Source: Aurantiochytrium sp. KH105
Taxonomy: Eukaryota; Sar; Bigyra; Thraustochytrida; Thraustochytriidae
NCBI GenBank assembly: GCA_003116975.1
Contig: BGKB01000262.1
Coordinates: forward strand, 186,001-250,000
Length of the DNA stretch: 64,000 nt
Direction of reading: 5' to 3'
In this document: positions 16,917 through 34,300 of the stretch, one piece after another
How the letters are laid out: every line of letters starts with the position of its first letter
Numbering within the stretch: position 1 is the stretch's first letter
Notes under the pieces: model-generated
Told to the model about the DNA's origin: nothing
Database searches by the model: none
What the model saw: the letters and a program-made list of their open reading frames with translations, nothing else
Position numbers and translations under genes: made by a program

Positions 16917-18044
16917 TCACGTTTGGACAAGGTGCACAACAATGTCTTCGGCACCGAGAATGGGCGCGGGTCCGGTGGTCTTGTCGGCTCGGCCGTACGT
17001 TCGACCATCATTTGCTCCATCTTGGTCGTCGGCGTCGTCCTCGTCGTCGTCGTCATCATCATCGCCATCCTCATCCTCGTCCTCGTCCTCGTCCTCACCC
17101 TCATCTCCATCCTCGTCGTCGTCTTCATCCTCGTCGCCATCGGCGTCTTCAGAGGCATCATCCGCATCGTTGGCCCCGCCCAGATACCGCATGCCCCTGC
17201 CACCTGCTCCTCCACTCGCCGCGCTCACTGCCGGGAGCGGTTGCGAAAGCAAATGCTCCTCGAGCGCCTTGCGCAAGGCATCGAGCGGTAATCGTTCAAC
17301 GAGAGCGGGCGAGGCTTGCTGAAGGCGCTCTTCAGCAGCGCGGCCGACGTTGATCGTCTGACGCGCAAAATTATCTACGATTCTGTCCATGCGCTTGGCC
17401 TCCTCGACCTCGCGACTCACGGGGTCCTGCGCAGCGTCAATGTCTGAATTCTGCCGGCTGCCCCCAGTGTAGCCCGCACCTTGGCTCGTGTCCGAGCCAG
17501 GACCACCTGTAGCGGTTTGCGCAGCGCTCCCAGATCGCGATCCGCCAGGTCCTCCAGGCCCAGCCCCGGGCAAACCTCCTGCTGCGCCTTCCGCCGTGTT
17601 GCCCGCAGTGGTGGCCGACCCATCCGCCACGCCACCGTCGGCGTGGTGTCCGCCAGCGGTCTGATCCGCAAGATTGAGGATCGATTCTGGGACATACTGC
17701 TTCGGGTCGAGACCGAGGAAGAGGCAGAGCAGACGCCAGGCCGCCTCCGAGGGCGGGTTGGCGACGATGCCGTTCACGAGCTTGTCCAAGAAGGCCTGCA
17801 GCTCGCGCTGCCGTTTGAGGACGAACTCCGGGTTGGTGTTTCCAAAGTACTTTTTGGGCGGCACGTCTGGAATTGGAAACGCGTGCTTGAACTTGGTCAG
17901 CTGCGCGTGTAGCTCAATGAACATCCTGAACCGCCGCCTCTGCGACGCGATCTTGACCGAGCCGGCGCGCAGCTCCACCTTGTACTCCGTGTGCTCGTTC
18001 ACGAGCTCGTGCCCGGTGATCACCGCGCGAATTGGCTGCGACAT
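16917..18044 (-). CDS. PX-domain phosphoinositide-binding protein with acidic tail
   Basis: The 375-residue protein starts with a PX domain (about 4-113). It has the Arg/Phe pair of the binding pocket (RRRFRMF, 37-42), the conserved proline turn PPKKYFG (62-68), and the helix with Arg78/Arg80 before LQAFLDKLV. PX domains bind PI3P or related lipids on endosomes. After a Gly/Ala/Ser-rich linker comes a helical segment (about 225-280), then a long run of Asp and Glu (about 300-345). There is no BAR domain as in classical sorting nexins. I start at the ATG at 18044 since the sequence upstream is basic and low-complexity. The gene is divergent from the methionine synthase reductase gene. Confidence 0.85.
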   Translation of the reverse strand: MSQPIRAVITGHELVNEHTEYKVELRAGSVKIASQRRRFRMFIELHAQLTKFKHAFPIPDVPPKKYFGNTNPEFVLKRQRELQAFLDKLVNGIVANPPSEAAWRLLCLFLGLDPKQYVPESILNLADQTAGGHHADGGVADGSATTAGNTAEGAAGGLPGAGPGGPGGSRSGSAAQTATGGPGSDTSQGAGYTGGSRQNSDIDAAQDPVSREVEEAKRMDRIVDNFARQTINVGRAAEERLQQASPALVERLPLDALRKALEEHLLSQPLPAVSAASGGAGGRGMRYLGGANDADDASEDADGDEDEDDDEDGDEGEDEDEDEDEDGDDDDDDDEDDADDQDGANDGRTYGRADKTTGPAPILGAEDIVVHLVQT

Positions 18045-18719: not shown

Positions 18720-21700
18720 ATGTCGGAGAAGACAAATGTTCTGATCCTGTACGGCTCAGAGACCGGAAACGCAGAGTCCATTGCCGAAGGCTTGTACGAG
18801 GCAAGTGGAGAAAATGGCTTTGCAGGAGTTCTTGCACCCCTGGACGACTACAAAAAGGTCGGCTTCGAATCTGCTTCGCTGGTCCTCATTGTAACGTCAA
18901 CGACGGGCAATGGAGAGCCTCCACGCAACGCCGATAAGTTTTACCGCTTCTTGCGACGACGATCGCACCCGGATGGCTTCCTGGCGGACAAGTCTTTTGC
19001 AGTGCTTGGCCTCGGCGACACTAATTACGACCAGTTTTGCTGGGTCGCGAAGCGCGTCGACGCGCGCATGGAGCAGCTCGGTGCGAAACGGATTCTTCCA
19101 CTTGCGTGCGCAGATGAGGGCACCGATTTAGAAAAAACGGTGGAGCCTTGGCGCTTGGGCATTTGGGATGTGCTCCGCGCGTATCTCGCCGAGGGCCCTG
19201 CACCCGTAGACAACGGCAACAACCATGCAAACGATTCCAAGGAGGACGCAGGGAATGCCAGCGGCGAACCTTCTGGCGCGAGTCGCGCAGAAGAAAGTGC
19301 CCGTGCCGAAGCGCCGAAAGGCAGCCCGGCGGTCCCGACGGCTTCGCCTACAGCCACGTCTGAGCCATCACAGCTTCCTGTGGCTTCCGCTTCCGAAGCG
19401 CAAACTGCCACGCCACGCGGCGAAGACAGTGCCGAGACTTCGCACGGGCCAGCAAGGGACCTACTTATCATGTACGGCTCGGAAACAGGCAATGCGGAAG
19501 CCATTGCAACAGATCTGCACGCCAAAGCTTCAGCGCATGGCTTCAACTCTCGACTTGCAGAGATGAACGCATTCAAAGAGTGCAAGCTAGTCGAGCAAGA
19601 ACTTGCCCTATTTGTAGTTTCGACGACGGGCAACGGCGAACCACCACGCAATGCCGACGCCTGTTGGCGTTTTTTGCGGCGGCGAACGCAGCCGCAGGAC
19701 CTGCTGCAGGGAATGCAGTATGCGGTTCTTGCGCTCGGAGACACAAATTACGACCAGTTCTGCCATGCCGGGAAACGCGTCGACAAGCGACTAGCGGAAC
19801 TTGGTGCTGCACGCATTCTCAATGTTGCGTGCGCTGATGAAGGCACTGGACTCGAGCAAGTGGTGGAGCCGTGGAAGGTGAATATTTGGGAGGCACTTGC
19901 TGCAAAGGTGTCTGGCGCCAAGGCGGGCCCGGCAGACGAGAATCTTTCTCGTCAATCGATTGCGGAAGACAGCACACAAGCCGCAGCAAGCGCCGAGACG
20001 TCACCGACTGTCAATCATGCCGAGCGCAAAGAATTGGCCAAGTCCATTGGAGTCGAGCAAGAAAATAATTTTCAAGGCGCCTCTTCCACAACAAAGGCAG
20101 ACGCAAAGGCTGCGACGACGGTTGAAGCTGGTCGCTTCAGGGACGAAGTTCTCGTCTTGTATGGATCGGAAACTGGAAACGGCGAGGCGATTGCGGAGAG
20201 GGTGTTTGAGCAGCTGAACGCGGCGCAAACACCAGCGAAGTTGGCCCCGATGAACGACTACAAAAAGGTCGGCCTCCTTGATGCCCGTGAGGCGATCTTT
20301 ATCGTCTCGAGCACTGGCAATGGCGATCCGCCCCGCAATGCAGAGTCCATGATGCGTTTTATTCGACGGCGCTCACATCCGGAGAATTTGCTGCAGCATT
20401 TGCGGTACGCCATTCTGGCTCTTGGCGACACGAACTATGACAACTTTTGTGCCACAGGTGCCGCTCTTGAGCGCAGGCTCACTCAGCTTGGTGCCACGAG
20501 ATGGCTTGACATGGTTCGCGCAGATGAAGCCGTGGGTCTCGACGAATTCGTCGAGCCGTGGGTTGAAAAGGTGCTTTCGCGGAGTGGGCCAAGCGATGGC
20601 GGTTCGAAGAAGGAAGAGCCTGCGTCCAACAGCTCAGCGCCCAGCACGAGGCTTGCGTCTGGCTCTTCAAAGGCAACGTCGGTTCAAAAGTCCACGAGCG
20701 AAACGAAGGCATTGGCCGATACAAAGCCGACACATGATGCAAGCACGGGGAGTGCTGCAAGATCGACCGTCGTGCAGCCGGCTGGGCTTCCTGTCAAGCT
20801 TGCTGCTGCAAACCCCAAGCCGGTCGCTGGTGCGACGACCAAGTTAAAATCAGCAACGCCATCACAGTCTGGGGCAGACAATACGACGACAGGCTGGCGC
20901 GAAGCTGGGCCACCCATGACTTTTGAAGACGTGTGCTCATTGTCTTCCGTGGAGGAGCTGGAGAAAAATACGGTGAGGCCGGGGAATCTTGACGCATGCC
21001 TCGCGCGGGTGCGTGTGGTCTCGTCAGAGCCGACTCGCAAGAACTCGGTGTCATCGTCAGGCTCTGGGTCCTCGGCAACCTCGGGCCAGATCACGGATAC
21101 GGGAGGCGCGAACGAGAATCGCCCGCGCATTCGCTCCTTTGCGTCGATGGACTCGCCTGGAAGTGTTGCAGGGTCGAGCGCATCAAATCCAATCGATGCT
21201 GATCTTGTGGAAGCCGAGTACATGTCCAAGGGCGAGGACGTGAAGCGGGTTCTTCGTGTCTCCCTGGAGCTCAAGTTTCCTGAGTTTCCTGCACAGTGGA
21301 GTCCTGGTGATGCTCTTGGCGTCATTTGCCCCAACCCGGACGTACTCGTCTCCAAGGTGCTCGGTCGACTTGGTCTTGACGGCAAGACACAAGTTGAGGT
21401 GACGACTCGTGCTCGAGGTCCGGCAGGTTCGGCAGCGACTGCAGGTGCGTCGCAGGCGCAGGAGCGACCACTTTTTCCCAATTTGGATCCTGTGACAAGC
21501 GTGGAGCAGATCTTTACGTGGGGCGTGGACATGACATCGACGCCTCGCAAGTCTTTTTTTCGAATGCTTTCGGAGCACTGCTCGGATCCATTGGACCGCG
21601 CGAGGTTGCGATACCTGAGTTCCCTCAAGGGACGGAGCGTTTTTGTCAAGCTTATTGAAGCGCAACAGCTGACGTTGCTCGAAGTCCTTGAGCTCTTTCC

Positions 21701-22700
21701 CTCGTGCTCACCACCTTTGGAGAGCCTCCTGCATGGGCTTCCCAAGTTGGCGCCGCGTTTCTATTCGGTGGCCAACTCCCCGCTTGGGTCACAAGGCTAT
21801 CGCCGCGTGACCTTGGCCATGACCGTGGTGGAGACGGAGATGCTCGGGCGTGACGGTCGGCAGCGCGTCGTGCATGGGCTGTGCACGTCGTGGATGGAAG
21901 GTCTGGCGCGGAAATTGTCACAGCAGCGGCAAGTGCAAGGGCGAGGGCAAGGCGGCGCTGGCGGCGCGACGGCTTTACCAGGGGCGAGACCGACGCGAGC
22001 GCTCGATGCTGTCCTGCGCAAGGTGGGGCGGGCACCTCCTCCGCGGCCGAATCCCCCGCCGCCGCCGCCCCGCGTGCAGGTATTTTTCCGTAGCTCGTCT
22101 GCATTCCACCTGCCGGGCAACGTGGAGATCCCGCTCATCATGATTGGCCCTGGGACGGGCGTGGCGCCCTTTGTGGGCTTCGTCGAGCATCGACGCCACC
22201 TCAAGACCGCTCAGGTTGCCGTGAAGGGCGATTTGTACGAAGGTCATTGGCGTGGGGGCCATGCGGTACACGCCGAGGATCTTGCGGCAACGCTCGAATT
22301 TGAGCCCGAGCAGCAGCTTAAAGCCGAGGTGGAGCCAAGTCACCTTTACTACGGCTGTCGATATGAGGATCGGGACTTTTTGTTCAAGGACTTCTTGGAG
22401 CGCGAGGCCAAGGCCGGCGACGTGCTGGGCTGCTTGCGGTGCGCCTTTTCGCGTAAGGGCGCGGACAAGGTCTACGTCCAGCACTTGCTTCGCGCGGACG
22501 GCGCAGCGGTGGCGGAGCGCATTTTGCGCCGCGAGGGTTTCATTTATGTCTGCGGCGACGGAATGGCTATGGCCAAGGACGTTCACCAGGCTCTTATTGA
22601 TATTCTCGTGCAACACGGCCGACTCAGCAAGGTCGAGGCCCAGACCAAGCTCGAGGAGCTCGCACAGCGCGGGCGCTACAAGCGCGACATCTGGTCTTGA
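18720..22700 (+). CDS. MTRR: Methionine synthase reductase with three tandem flavodoxin domains
   Basis: The 1,326-residue protein has three complete flavodoxin-like domains, starting near residues 6, 246 and 474. Each has the FMN loop YGSETGN followed by TGNG(E/D)PPRNA, LALGDTNYD(Q/N)FC and a Glu-Pro-Trp end. Disordered linkers separate them. From about 740 comes the diflavin-reductase half: connecting and FAD domain with RFYSVANSPLG (about 1013) and a NADPH domain with GPGTGVAPFVGF (about 1141), GCRYEDRDFL (about 1211), YVCGDG (about 1275) and a terminal YKRDIWS. The SFHLP-like segment before GPGTG and the DIWS end are signatures of methionine synthase reductase, which reactivates cob(II)alamin methionine synthase with NADPH. 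Family members have one flavodoxin domain; three is unusual. A Pro-rich insert lies near 1105. Start is the ATG just before the first domain. Confidence 0.9.
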   Translation: MSEKTNVLILYGSETGNAESIAEGLYEASGENGFAGVLAPLDDYKKVGFESASLVLIVTSTTGNGEPPRNADKFYRFLRRRSHPDGFLADKSFAVLGLGDTNYDQFCWVAKRVDARMEQLGAKRILPLACADEGTDLEKTVEPWRLGIWDVLRAYLAEGPAPVDNGNNHANDSKEDAGNASGEPSGASRAEESARAEAPKGSPAVPTASPTATSEPSQLPVASASEAQTATPRGEDSAETSHGPARDLLIMYGSETGNAEAIATDLHAKASAHGFNSRLAEMNAFKECKLVEQELALFVVSTTGNGEPPRNADACWRFLRRRTQPQDLLQGMQYAVLALGDTNYDQFCHAGKRVDKRLAELGAARILNVACADEGTGLEQVVEPWKVNIWEALAAKVSGAKAGPADENLSRQSIAEDSTQAAASAETSPTVNHAERKELAKSIGVEQENNFQGASSTTKADAKAATTVEAGRFRDEVLVLYGSETGNGEAIAERVFEQLNAAQTPAKLAPMNDYKKVGLLDAREAIFIVSSTGNGDPPRNAESMMRFIRRRSHPENLLQHLRYAILALGDTNYDNFCATGAALERRLTQLGATRWLDMVRADEAVGLDEFVEPWVEKVLSRSGPSDGGSKKEEPASNSSAPSTRLASGSSKATSVQKSTSETKALADTKPTHDASTGSAARSTVVQPAGLPVKLAAANPKPVAGATTKLKSATPSQSGADNTTTGWREAGPPMTFEDVCSLSSVEELEKNTVRPGNLDACLARVRVVSSEPTRKNSVSSSGSGSSATSGQITDTGGANENRPRIRSFASMDSPGSVAGSSASNPIDADLVEAEYMSKGEDVKRVLRVSLELKFPEFPAQWSPGDALGVICPNPDVLVSKVLGRLGLDGKTQVEVTTRARGPAGSAATAGASQAQERPLFPNLDPVTSVEQIFTWGVDMTSTPRKSFFRMLSEHCSDPLDRARLRYLSSLKGRSVFVKLIEAQQLTLLEVLELFPSCSPPLESLLHGLPKLAPRFYSVANSPLGSQGYRRVTLAMTVVETEMLGRDGRQRVVHGLCTSWMEGLARKLSQQRQVQGRGQGGAGGATALPGARPTRALDAVLRKVGRAPPPRPNPPPPPPRVQVFFRSSSAFHLPGNVEIPLIMIGPGTGVAPFVGFVEHRRHLKTAQVAVKGDLYEGHWRGGHAVHAEDLAATLEFEPEQQLKAEVEPSHLYYGCRYEDRDFLFKDFLEREAKAGDVLGCLRCAFSRKGADKVYVQHLLRADGAAVAERILRREGFIYVCGDGMAMAKDVHQALIDILVQHGRLSKVEAQTKLEELAQRGRYKRDIWS

Positions 22701-29189: not shown

Positions 29190-30364
29190 CTATTTATCGT
29201 CATCTGATTGATCCACGCTATCCCAATCGATGAAACCATTCTGCAGATAGTTGAACAAGAGCTCGTACGATAAAAATGTAATGGCACACGCAGGAGTTGT
29301 CCGCAAAATTTGAGTCCCAAGACCCTGATAAAGACCTAAAAAGCCCTCGCGGGCAATAATATTTCGAATCACACGGAATACGTGCACACGCATGAGCCCT
29401 CGGTGCGGCTCCTGCGGGTCGAGAGACCCCATTTGAACTTCGACGTGTAGTCGCGCGCGGGCGATATCATGCGGGTATGTCACTGTGGTCGCGACGAATT
29501 TGGACAGGGTCGAGGCTGCAATGAGCACCGAGATATGGCTCCAGTTGCTATCCTGGTGACGCGCAACAAAGTCTGAAGACCCGAGCACCGTCTTAAGGTG
29601 CTCATACAGTGGAAACTGCACTCCAACATGCGAAAGACCAAGCATTGAGGCACTCAAGCCCTTATAAAAGGCCTGAAATCCCTCGACCCGGTAAATCTTA
29701 CGAAAGGCATGAAAGGTGCCCTTGTACTCTGGCTCGCACGTCACATGTTCCTGGACCTGAAGACGCGTACGCACGACCCAAAATGGGTTTGTACACAGAT
29801 TTGTGATGGCGCCCGCTACGACAGCGCTTGTGATCGTGCACAACATGGGGTGTTCCGGTCCATACACGGGCCCAACACGATCTTTGAGATACCCGTAGGT
29901 CGAAAAGTATATTGACCACGAGGGGACATAGCCCATGATGGTTGAGGGAAGACCGCGGAAGAGCCCCGGGACACCCTCTTGCTTGTATATTTGACGAAAG
30001 GCGTGTATCGTCCCTTTATAGCGGCGCGGGGTATTGTTCAGCTCGGCTCGAGCGTCAGCTTTTGCAGGGCCGCTGCCGCTCTCAGCGATGGCCACAAGAT
30101 GCTGCTGCCGTGCTCCCTGCACCTGCATGCGCGCCTTGACCACATCGAACGGCGCCACTGCCAACGCTCCCAAAATACCTGACCCCGCGCCGGCAAGCGC
30201 CGAGTGCAGGTGCTCGGTGTGGTGGACGGCAGCAAAGGGCCACCCGCGTTTCCGCGAGACTTCGGGCTGACGGTGATAAAACTCCACGGCTCCCTGGAGC
30301 TCGTGGGCGCGCTCGCTTTCTCCGCGAGGCAGCACGTCCTGCGCGCGGCTCCCGTGCCGCCGCG

Positions 30365-30399
<35 letters not shown>

Positions 30400-30467
30400 G
30401 AGAGCGAGAGCGGCTGCGTGTGCGGCTGCTGCGCCTGCGGCTGCTGCGCCTCGCCGTCGAAACCCAT
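29190..30467 (-). CDS. Mitochondrial carrier, NAD/FAD/folate/pyrimidine-nucleotide type (SLC25A32/33/36 group)
   Basis: The 425-residue protein has three carrier repeats, each with a P-x-D/W-x-x-K/R signature: APFDVVKAR (about 105), TNPFWVVRTR (about 227) and YPHDIARAR (about 331). The NPFWVVRTR form and PSWSIYF (about 182-188) mark the subfamily that carries NAD, FAD, folate or pyrimidine nucleotides across the inner mitochondrial membrane. The substrate within this group cannot be fixed. The N-terminus is extended by about 85 residues and holds a polyglutamine run (11 Gln, CAG codons). The frame is open far upstream, but that sequence is Lys/Ala/Gln/Arg low-complexity, so the ATG nearest the domain is used. 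The gene is divergent from the GAF-like gene. Confidence 0.88.
30365..30399. repeat. (CTG)n run encoding polyglutamine in the carrier
   Basis: About eleven triplets, read as CAG on the minus strand, in the N-terminal extension of the carrier. Confidence 0.9.
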
Positions 30468-30812
30468 GGCCGCCGCCGCCGCCTCCAACGGGCGTGCCGT
30501 CCGCGGTCGATCGCTCGTGGGACCGCGGGACGCGGCGCAGGCCCTCCTGCGCCACGCGCCGCGAGCGCCCCTCGCACGCGCGCACGCACGCACGCGCGCG
30601 CGGCAACAGGCAGCCGGAAACGCAAGGAAACGCAAGGAAAAGAAAGGAAGGCCCAGATAGATCACGGCTTGGCCGCCCCTCAATGCGGCGGCGCGCCTCT
30701 CGCGCCCCCGCCTCCTCCCGCTCGCTCGCTCTGCGCCGCACGCGCGCCACGCCACGCCGCGCCACGCCGCGCCACGCCGCGACACGCCACGCGACGCGAC
30801 GCACCGCTCGCT

Positions 30813-30906
30813 CGGCCTGGCCTGGCCTGGCCTGGCTTCGGCTTTGCTTTGCTTTGCTTTGCTTTGCCTTGCCTTGCCTTGCCTTGCCTTGCCTTGCCTT
30901 GCCTTT
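30813..30906. repeat. (CCTGG), (CTTTG) and (CCTTG) pentanucleotide arrays
   Basis: Adjacent arrays of three related pentanucleotides in the divergent region before the carrier start: about four CCTGG, four CTTTG and seven CCTTG copies. Confidence 0.9.
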
Positions 30907-30971
30907 CTTCGCCTCGCCCTGGTTTTCAAAAAGCAGCGCGCTCTTTTCCGCCACTTTGCCTCCCCGAGCTC

Positions 30972-31030
30972 CCACTTGCGCACCCGCCATTCTCCACTTG
31001 CGCACCCGCCATTCTCCACTTGCGCCCGCC
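30972..31030. repeat. 22-bp direct repeat, two full copies and a partial third
   Basis: Units starting CCACTTGCGCACCCGCCATT follow head to tail at 30972 and 30994, with a truncated copy from 31016. Confidence 0.9.
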
Positions 31031-31361
31031 CGCCGCCCGGCGCGCGTCCTGTGGCCCCGGAGGACCGGGGCCGAGCGCGGAATTCCGGGGACCCCGCCTC
31101 AACGGATCGGCGGCGGCGGCACGCGGGAGACCGCGGGTCAGAGCCGCAGCGCCCGCGCGCGCGATGCGCAGGTCCGCGCGAGGCCGCGAGGGAGAAGGAG
31201 ACTCGGGCTGGGGGCGAAGGCGACGAGGCGGAGGAGAACGAGGACATCGAGGACATCGCGGCAGCAGAAGCTCGGCGAAATGCGAAGAGGCGGCTGGAAA
31301 CGGAATGGCAGCCGCGAGTGGAGGGGCCCAGCTCCCGAGCTCCAAAACCTGCGCGATCCGG

Positions 31362-34300
31362 ATGCATGAGCGACCCGTGGAGGCGCGGAGAATGAGGGAA
31401 GAGGATCAGGGTGTGGGCGAGAAAGGGAAAGCGCGAGAGCAGCCGGATCCGGAGCTGCCTCGCTCGTGGGCCCCCCAGCAGAGCGTGCGCGCAGCCTTCG
31501 ATCACTTGACAAGCGTACCATTACGAACCAAACTAAATTATCACCGCGCCGATGGCCATCAAGGTGTTCACATTGCGACAGACTACCTACAAAAGCCAAA
31601 AATTGAATTGCAACATGTCAACGTCGGCGCGGTTCAAACGGCGCTCTCACCGCCACGCAGACAGCCGCCAGCCCAAACTCCACGACGGCCGCAAGATGCG
31701 AGCCCACATGTTCGAACAAACAGACCCAGAGCCTCGCCACGTATTCAACGCAACGCTGTGGGTGCCAAACCTGCAGTGTCAAGCTCGCATAGAGTCCGCA
31801 AGATGGATCGATCCGAGAAGCTCGAGGTTGTCGATCATTTACATGAAATGGCCAAGAACCTACGACTCATGCGGAAAAGCTTTGCGCTCTTGTCGGCTGC
31901 AAAATCAAGAGCTGAAAATATCAAAGCTGTGCTCGCTGCCTTGAAAAAGGGATTTCCTCAGCTCACAACGTGCTTCGTTCTGCAAGCGCTTGGCCAAAAC
32001 GAAGAGTTCCCGGCCTGCGATGGACCTGCGCGCGTCGTTGTATGCGGCGCGCATCGTTTTGCGATGAGTCATTGGGCGCACAGTGAGAGCATTCTTGCCG
32101 CGTCTCAAAAGATATTGACTTCCGCTGTCCTGCAGTGCGTGGGTGCTCGCGTGCAGGAGGAGGGCTTGCGGCATTTTTGTGCAAGTCTACCAGACTCGAG
32201 CCGTCTTCAGTGTGTCGTCATGCAACGGCCGGGAGGGGAGCTCGCGGGTCTGATATGTAGTGTGGCTCCGGGATGGCTTCCAGACCCCGATGAAGTCTAC
32301 CTGCGACTCATACTCCGAAGTGCAGCCGCAAACTTGGCTCTCGCGCTGCGAGACTTACATGTGGCGCGACATACACAGACGGTACTGGGCGCGACTGACT
32401 GGAGGAAGCGGATCATTGATGGCGCGGCGTGTTTTGTTCGCCAGCGTATTGGCGCAAACTCGGATTTATGGAGAATCTCGTACCTACTTCGAGGCGCCCT
32501 CCGAGCAAGCATTACGGGCTGTCTCGACTGCATCGTCGTTTTCCGGGACCTGAAGCGCGACGAAGGATTTGTTCTTCTCGAGTCGGTGCCCTCAAAGGGA
32601 CCCGTATACGCCAGCGATGGCGCGACTCGCGTGGTATTGGACGATCGGACGCACCCCGAGACCGATGTGCTCATGCCATGTGCGCAGGTCCGCGCGAAGC
32701 TCCGTGTCTACGAAAAAGCGCAATGCGCTGCGCTTAAATGCCTACGCACAGGAAAGGGGCCGCTTACAGATCCTCCTCGCACGCGTGCGGCAGATCTGGT
32801 TCAATTCTCCATGGAGGATCTCTGTCTTGAGGCTCAGAACAAATCATGGCTTGCTCAGACATGCGTGCCCATACTCACTACTTCCGACAACGGCGTCGAG
32901 CCCCTTGCATCCCTTTGTATTCTCAGTGAGGATCCACTCGAGGGTCTCGAGATTGATAAACTCGAAGCCGCAGCCCTGGCCGTGACATCGACGCTCGAGT
33001 CCGCTTGCAAGAGGTTTGTCGCGAGGCGCGCGCGACTGGCAACATCGATCGAGTTGCAAACCAAAATCGACGCGCGCCGAGACGAGCGTGCTGCTTTACA
33101 AGCCTTTTCCGATATTCTTAGCGTCGGCGTTGCGCAGAATCCCCAACAGATTCAGCAACATCTCAGCGAATGCGCCGTCAGCTGCTTGGCCACCGAAACG
33201 CTTCCGCGAATTTGGCTTCGCGAGGACTGCGCGGCGCTCCTGCGTGACGCAAAGGTCCCCTCTGAGTCTTCGAGTGCTCGTCTCGTGGCGCTCGCTGAAA
33301 ACGATTCTAATTCACTCGAGAAGCGCGACTTTGAGACCGCCTTCTTCGAGCCCATTGTCCTCGAGGATGCAACGCGCATCCTTGTTCCCCTCATTGCTCA
33401 GCCGGAAGGTGACTTTCTCGGCCTTGTGGAGAGTGCTTCTCCGCTATTACGCAGTCTGGAGGAGCGGCGCGAGACGAATCTTCATTCTGCTGGCGGCATC
33501 GCAGCGAAACGATGGATTGTGCACACCATGCACTTTGCGAGTATTGCGGCAGATCTGCTTCGTGCGGGCTTATTGCATCGTCACGTGGACTTTTTGCATG
33601 GGAGTTTGCGTCCTGGCGTCGAAAGCATTCGCGATCGGCTTCGTCAGGTTTCCCAGGAAGATGGCGGCCTCGCAGCGCTTGTACCGAGTGTACGTGACAT
33701 GCAGATGGATGGAATGCGTGTTGCCATGCGGTATTTTGTGGTGCTAGCCCGTGCACTTGTTGGAGCTGCAGGTGCAACGGCATTTGCTTTTGACAACACG
33801 CTTGACCCGACCGACCTGCACGAAATACACAACTCAGGTCTACCCGACGCCCTCCTCACGAACCCGGACGCGTTATATCTTCAGCGCCGACTTGGGAGCA
33901 CGCTTGTGCTTCGAGCGATACCTACGGATGAGGCAAAACGGCTTGTACCCGACAGAGACTTTGATGGAGATCTCCTTGGAGCAACCGAGGCGCGGCGAGC
34001 CGCAAATGAGGGCAAGGCTGACGGAGCTGCTCAAGAGGAGATACGCACGATTCACACCTTTTCCGATCCTCGAACGTCTCAAGGTCGCGATGCTCTTGCG
34101 GACGAGCTATCAAATTTGCGTATTGCAGCCTCGAACTTCGCGGACGAAGACGATACACCCATCGAAACTTCCAAAGACAACGACGCAAGATCACCTCATG
34201 CAGACGATCGGAGCACGTCCAGATCACGTCACTGTCAGTCCTCGAGTACAAATAGCTTGAGGCAAGCCGATATCAAAACACAAGAGATCCGCTCAGATGT

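Follow-up and report, generated by a model that had tools for sequence, protein, structure and literature searches.

A putative methionine synthase reductase with three flavodoxin domains in Aurantiochytrium sp. KH105

The gene and its three flavodoxin domains

The stretch analysed here (the window) comprises 64,000 nucleotides of the genome of Aurantiochytrium sp. KH105 (contig BGKB01000262.1, positions 186,001 to 250,000). It carries a gene for a predicted methionine synthase reductase (MTRR), in which three flavodoxin domains, probably binding flavin mononucleotide (FMN), precede one half binding flavin adenine dinucleotide (FAD) and NADPH. The gene was a single open frame on the plus strand, from ATG at 18720 to TGA at 22700, encoding 1326 amino acids (aa) with the standard code. 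The presence of three flavodoxin domains and one FAD/NADPH half in one frame, described in an earlier note on this DNA, was confirmed: the Pfam search, with the frame taken from 18327, revealed three Flavodoxin_1 domains (335.7 bits, E 3.5e-101) followed by FAD_binding_1 (4.4e-35) and NAD_binding_1 (7e-9).

A search of the whole genome (76 Mb, 367 contigs) yielded a second copy of the gene on contig C118 (61441-65412, minus strand), 97% identical, with three flavodoxin domains, the same layout and no stop. In neither copy did a stop or a frameshift interrupt the linkers between the domains, and the coding parts differed by one indel only, 6 nt long and in frame. The open frame extends upstream of the ATG as far as 18309. 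Translation likely starts at 18720, since the 820 bases before it contained six indels between the copies (2, 2, 1, 1, 8, and 13 nt), none of them a multiple of three, and the C118 copy had no in-frame ATG upstream of the matching position.

The three domains, designated D1, D2, and D3, were complete, and the motifs YGSETGN and LGDTNYD named in the earlier note were aligned in all of them. Common to the three were YGSETGN, S[ST]TGNG[ED]PPRNA, and LGDTNYD.FC, of which we take YGSETGN, TGNG[ED]PPRNA, and LGDTNYD to be the FMN loops. The P-loop, the 50s loop, and the 90s tyrosine, presumably involved in FMN binding, were retained in each head, and the FMN-facing loops were nearly identical. The suggestion that all three could bind FMN thus remains plausible, and FMN is probably bound in every head. 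The identity was 55% between D1 and D2, 46% between D1 and D3, and 47% between D2 and D3. Allelic rows excepted, no head exceeded 39% identity to a row outside the three. Judged by this divergence, the FMN-domain repeats of the gene are old, which answers in the negative the question whether they are recent duplicates. In all three, PPRNA was followed by RF[LI]RRR, and these shared motifs fit duplication within the gene. D3 had no tryptophan near the domain end (VEK vs. IWD and IWE in D1 and D2). In FMN-domain trees of 26 and 25 rows, the three heads grouped together with support of 91/86 and 86/88, respectively. Both trees took in 14 of 80 bacterial loci and omitted three long or fused rows, own and bacterial, as well as the allelic rows; the 25-row tree also omitted the NOS row. 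As for the order of duplication, neither D1+D3 nor D2+D3 was rejected (p-AU, the p-value of the approximately unbiased test, 0.32 each, 25-row tree).

Synonymous divergence between the two gene copies was 0.07, and the ratio of nonsynonymous to synonymous change (dN/dS) was low in all domains (Table 1). A deficit of nonsynonymous change per site was found in every head (Fisher test, p 7.1e-5 for D1, 0.0018 for D2, and 1.4e-5 for D3), with no detectable difference in constraint among them (p 0.32). All three heads are under purifying selection. The linkers were weakly constrained (p 0.043) and accumulated more change than the heads (p 0.00056). Hydrophobic residues made up 5–16% of the linkers vs. 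27% of the whole protein, which suggests that the linkers are flexible tethers.

Table 1. Features of the putative reductase gene (window positions) and of the methionine synthase genes (contig:positions); dN/dS refers to the comparison of the two reductase gene copies.
Feature	Position	Strand	Length	dN/dS	Remarks
Whole gene, putative triple-FMN methionine synthase reductase	18720..22700	+	1326 aa plus stop	0.19	Frame, Pfam, reductase-half tree
D1, first flavodoxin/FMN domain (PF00258)	18744..19151	+		0.04	124.7 bits
Linker D1-D2	19194..19451	+	86 aa	0.46	A/E/K/P/Q/S/T/G/N/D = 90% of residues; copies without indel
D2, second flavodoxin/FMN domain (PF00258)	19467..19874	+		0.16	123.9 bits
Linker D2-D3	19920..20138	+	73 aa	0.86	Low complexity
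D3, third flavodoxin/FMN domain (PF00258)	20154..20561	+		0.10	103 bits; most divergent
Long hinge, D3 to FAD half	20640..21164	+	175 aa	0.39
FAD-binding and connecting domain (PF00667)	21180..21893	+		0.08	Pfam; part of the reductase half
Low-complexity insert	21915..22073	+	53 aa		Proline run at its end; site of the sole coding indel (6 nt)
NADPH-binding domain (PF00175)	22140..22586	+		0.10	Pfam; protein terminus ...RDIWS at 22697
MetH, three N-terminal halves	C43:427704-436298	+			Three 753-aa units, then one 601-aa cobalamin half
MetH, two N-terminal halves	C193:72591-78926	-			Two 753-aa units, then one cobalamin half

Internal repeats were detected in two of the 45 open frames of at least 250 aa in the window, namely the reductase gene and 29193-31520 (minus strand), and in three of 67 frames of 11 other loci, all three being methionine synthase frames of two gene copies. 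This base rate is rough, with many frames not being genes and the 11 loci being non-random. The repeat in 29193-31520 was weak (27–31% identity over 104–145 aa); this frame, which overlaps a long frame on the opposite strand, is possibly not a gene. Upstream of the reductase gene, on the opposite strand (16920-18041), lies a gene for a PX-domain protein with a very acidic C-terminal tail.

The reductase half and other flavodoxin-type genes

Among solved structures, the reductase half scored best against human MTRR (2qtl, 221.9 bits), 47 bits ahead of the runner-up (174.7 bits). A 13-row tree paired the half with human MTRR with support of 96/94, and none of the three other reductases of KH105 in that tree was so paired. 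One MTRR-type reductase half, as proposed in the earlier note, is therefore retained, although on other grounds. The peptides cited there as hallmarks (FHLP before GPGTG and the terminal DIWS) are not specific to MTRR, as closely similar sequences occur in POR (FRLP...GPGTG and DVWS). With the whole protein as a query, several POR chains outranked 2qtl (220 vs. 214.9 bits), since the 2qtl chain is devoid of the FMN domain. A clade of D1–D3 with a provisional FMN row for human MTRR was neither recovered nor rejected (p-AU 0.449, 25-row tree). On the basis of score and tree, the reductase half appears to be of the MTRR type, and the gene, the only MTRR candidate seen in the genome, probably encodes a protein with MTRR activity.

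At least 20 Flavodoxin_1 matches were found in the genome, such domain counts being lower bounds. Six of these matches were D1–D3 of the two gene copies, and six others were weak and located in small frames. The rest, in two copies each, were NDOR1-like, POR-like, a putative flavodoxin-sulfite reductase fusion, and TYW1-like. The NDOR and POR names were backed by the FMN-domain trees, and the putative sulfite reductase and TYW1 were named from reading their sequences. Contig C127 carried a frame of 1897 aa that resembled sulfite reductase and included a flavodoxin domain, and a separate reductase-half frame lay approximately 10 kb away.

No second FMN domain in the same frame was present in any of the 80 bacterial loci kept of 130 relatives. 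Three further sets, all blind to eukaryotic relatives, gave no whole-protein relatives in viral contigs, seven pattern matches and no relatives in prokaryote genomes, and 147 matching plasmid records, none covering >80% of the query. Pieces of a PfaA-like polyketide synthase with ACP matches were also noticed at C72:311448-314582 and on C155, C290, and C61 (there at 32-403 from the contig start). The PfaA-like match (930.4 bits), a tentative pointer to a thraustochytrid, was under the family cut-off of 1010.1, as were 11 of 14 controls.

Methionine synthases of KH105

The presumed partner, cobalamin-dependent methionine synthase (MetH), was present: its activation domain was found twice, on contigs C43 and C193. 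Neither family of MetE was found in the genome by a search blind to introns. Schizochytrium is reported to have a divergent MetE-like domain, according to the available part of that source (PMC9734096). With such a search and such a report, the absence of MetE is not proven, but it is likely.

Both MetH genes had repeated N-terminal halves for homocysteine and folate, each unit consisting of an S-methyl_trans and a Pterin_bind domain, whereas the cobalamin half was single per chain (Table 1). For the C43 protein, 2732 of the 2865 aa were scanned with Pfam. All five units were intact and retained GLNCALG and GGCCGS, to which we ascribe a zinc role. Over the first 710 codons, the DNA of the units was 95.9–99.1% identical; units differed by 17 to 77.5 synonymous changes (~484 sites) and by 2 to 14.5 nonsynonymous changes (~1646 sites). 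The 20 sites at which units 1 and 2 of the C43 gene differed show that the extra unit did not arise simply from reading one unit twice. In part, units from the same contig resembled one another more than they did units from the other contig, a pattern expected from gene conversion. A literature search limited to narrow phrases did not find MetH with repeated N-terminal halves.

Possible mode of action and comparison with known systems

Diflavin reductases are assumed to work with one FMN per FAD. The explanation that we favour, with moderate confidence, is that the KH105 protein is an MTRR whose FMN domain was triplicated by old intragenic duplications, so that three tethered heads serve a single FAD in parallel. 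Electrons would pass from NADPH to the FAD, and any of the three FMN domains, moving on its long flexible linker, would swing in, take electrons from the FAD, and swing out. The reduced head would then deliver electrons to cob(II)alamin on MetH, enabling its remethylation by S-adenosylmethionine. With three parallel heads, reduced FMN would be locally more concentrated around one FAD and would encounter inactive MetH more often. Up to 8 electrons instead of 4 could be stored per chain, provided that each head binds FMN. For the human enzyme, the available part of one study (PMC13376404) gives the path NADPH-FAD-FMN-cobalamin, models the FMN domain on two domains of MTR, Cob and Act, and reports pulldowns in which MTRR bound the C-terminal half of MTR and not the N-terminal half.

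Several results weigh against this explanation. An FMN-domain tree of 18 rows did not resolve the three heads, and the support for their grouping in the later trees is moderate. When D1, D2, and D3 were searched singly, the top solved structure was human NDOR1 (4h2d), and no chain called MTRR occurred among the best 60 of their 94, 78, and 90 matches, respectively. Grouping of the reductase half with POR was only just rejected (p-AU 0.045), and its raw identity to a POR chain (41.0% of 300 positions) was close to that to human MTRR (41.2% of 311). Parallel use of the heads is what we infer, and no result tells it from serial or specialised use.

Specialised heads, of which one would serve MetH and the others would have diverged for other acceptors or B12 loading proteins, seem rather unlikely; a single reductase would then supply several partners, as the earlier note had suggested. 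Such divergence would agree with the 45–54% of residues differing between the heads and with the missing tryptophan of D3, but not with the near identity of the FMN-facing loops; moreover, no other partner is known, and the genome has NDOR-like and POR-like reductases of its own. It is improbable that the protein is not MTRR at all but another NADPH-flavin reductase with an unspecified partner, similar to the three-flavodoxin proteins of green algae and Phytophthora. A Volvox protein of the same layout has no known function according to the accessible text of its source (PMC10617192), and POR chains score close to MTRR; the 47-bit lead of human MTRR, the pairing in the tree, the presence of MetH, and the failure of any other flavodoxin-plus-reductase gene in the tree to pair with MTRR point the other way. 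Slightly less probable still is a serial relay, also raised in the earlier note, in which electrons would pass from FAD to D3, D2, and D1, or in another order, before reaching MetH. The linear order of the domains and the FMN loops in all three would permit it, but the long, weakly constrained linkers suit free diffusion more than a fixed chain, and the loops of the heads are probably too alike for graded potentials. Docking or decoy heads, with one or two FMN-free domains tethering the protein to MetH, are very improbable (the earlier note had suggested two decoys that dock methionine synthase): a stable complex of human MTRR and MTR is described in PMC13376404, but the FMN-binding elements and purifying selection are maintained in all three heads. 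Finally, read-through of separate genes or a duplication made by assembly was rejected and has next to no probability, the heads being 46–55% identical and the linkers in frame; an assembly error, which the earlier note had named as a refutation, is ruled out by the same layout in the 97% identical copy on another contig.

On the favoured reading, both enzymes of B12-dependent methionine synthesis would be multi-headed, and we tentatively consider, as a possibility short of an even chance, that they form a multivalent machine shaped by selection, either for throughput or for withstanding inactivation, in an organism where MetE was not found. MTRR would have three FMN shuttles per FAD and MetH two or three homocysteine and folate halves per cobalamin half, each enzyme multiplying the module N-terminal to its tethered shuttle pair. 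A joint origin is disfavoured by the difference in age between the heads of MTRR, which are old, and the MetH modules, which are recent (96–99% identical DNA), and by the binding of human MTRR to the half of MTR that is single per MetH chain here. For these reasons, the repeats do not imply a 3:3 match between the two enzymes.

Three constrained heads on one FAD offer a natural test of whether shuttling between the FAD and the partner limits diflavin reductases. Likewise, with its catalytic half present two or three times for each cobalamin half, MetH is a natural stoichiometry experiment in a domain-shuttling enzyme, and two natural MetH lengths coexist in one genome. The case also links the three-flavodoxin layout, so far represented by predicted proteins only, to a testable function, the reactivation of MetH.

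POR, NDOR1, CysJ, NOS, and P450-BM3 type enzymes have the same order of FMN, FAD, and NADPH modules, but one FMN domain, whereas the KH105 protein has three Flavodoxin_1 stretches. The FMN domain N-terminal to the FAD half, characteristic of MTRR, is present threefold. With human MTRR (2qtl), the KH105 protein shares the FAD, connecting, and NADPH domains, and the genome likewise has a cobalamin-dependent partner; it differs in the three FMN domains instead of one, the 175-aa hinge, and the 53-aa insert before the NADPH domain. For a hornwort MTRR, the accessible part of a plant and algal B12-gene survey gives PF00258, PF00667, and PF00175 and states no number of flavodoxin domains there (PMC11439496). 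The earlier statement that known diflavin reductases have a single FMN domain holds for the named families and for all 80 bacterial loci, but not in general. Three PF00258 domains followed by FAD are described for a predicted, uncharacterised oxidoreductase of Volvox (Vocar.0018s0107), and the layout is said to recur in many other green algae as well as in the Phytophthora clade, likewise uncharacterised (available text of PMC10617192). These proteins resemble the KH105 protein by this description, and in the same text the Volvox protein is not named MTRR, unlike our assignment. The layout itself is therefore not new; new here are the proposed MTRR assignment, the evidence for maintenance of each of the three heads, and the repeats in MetH.

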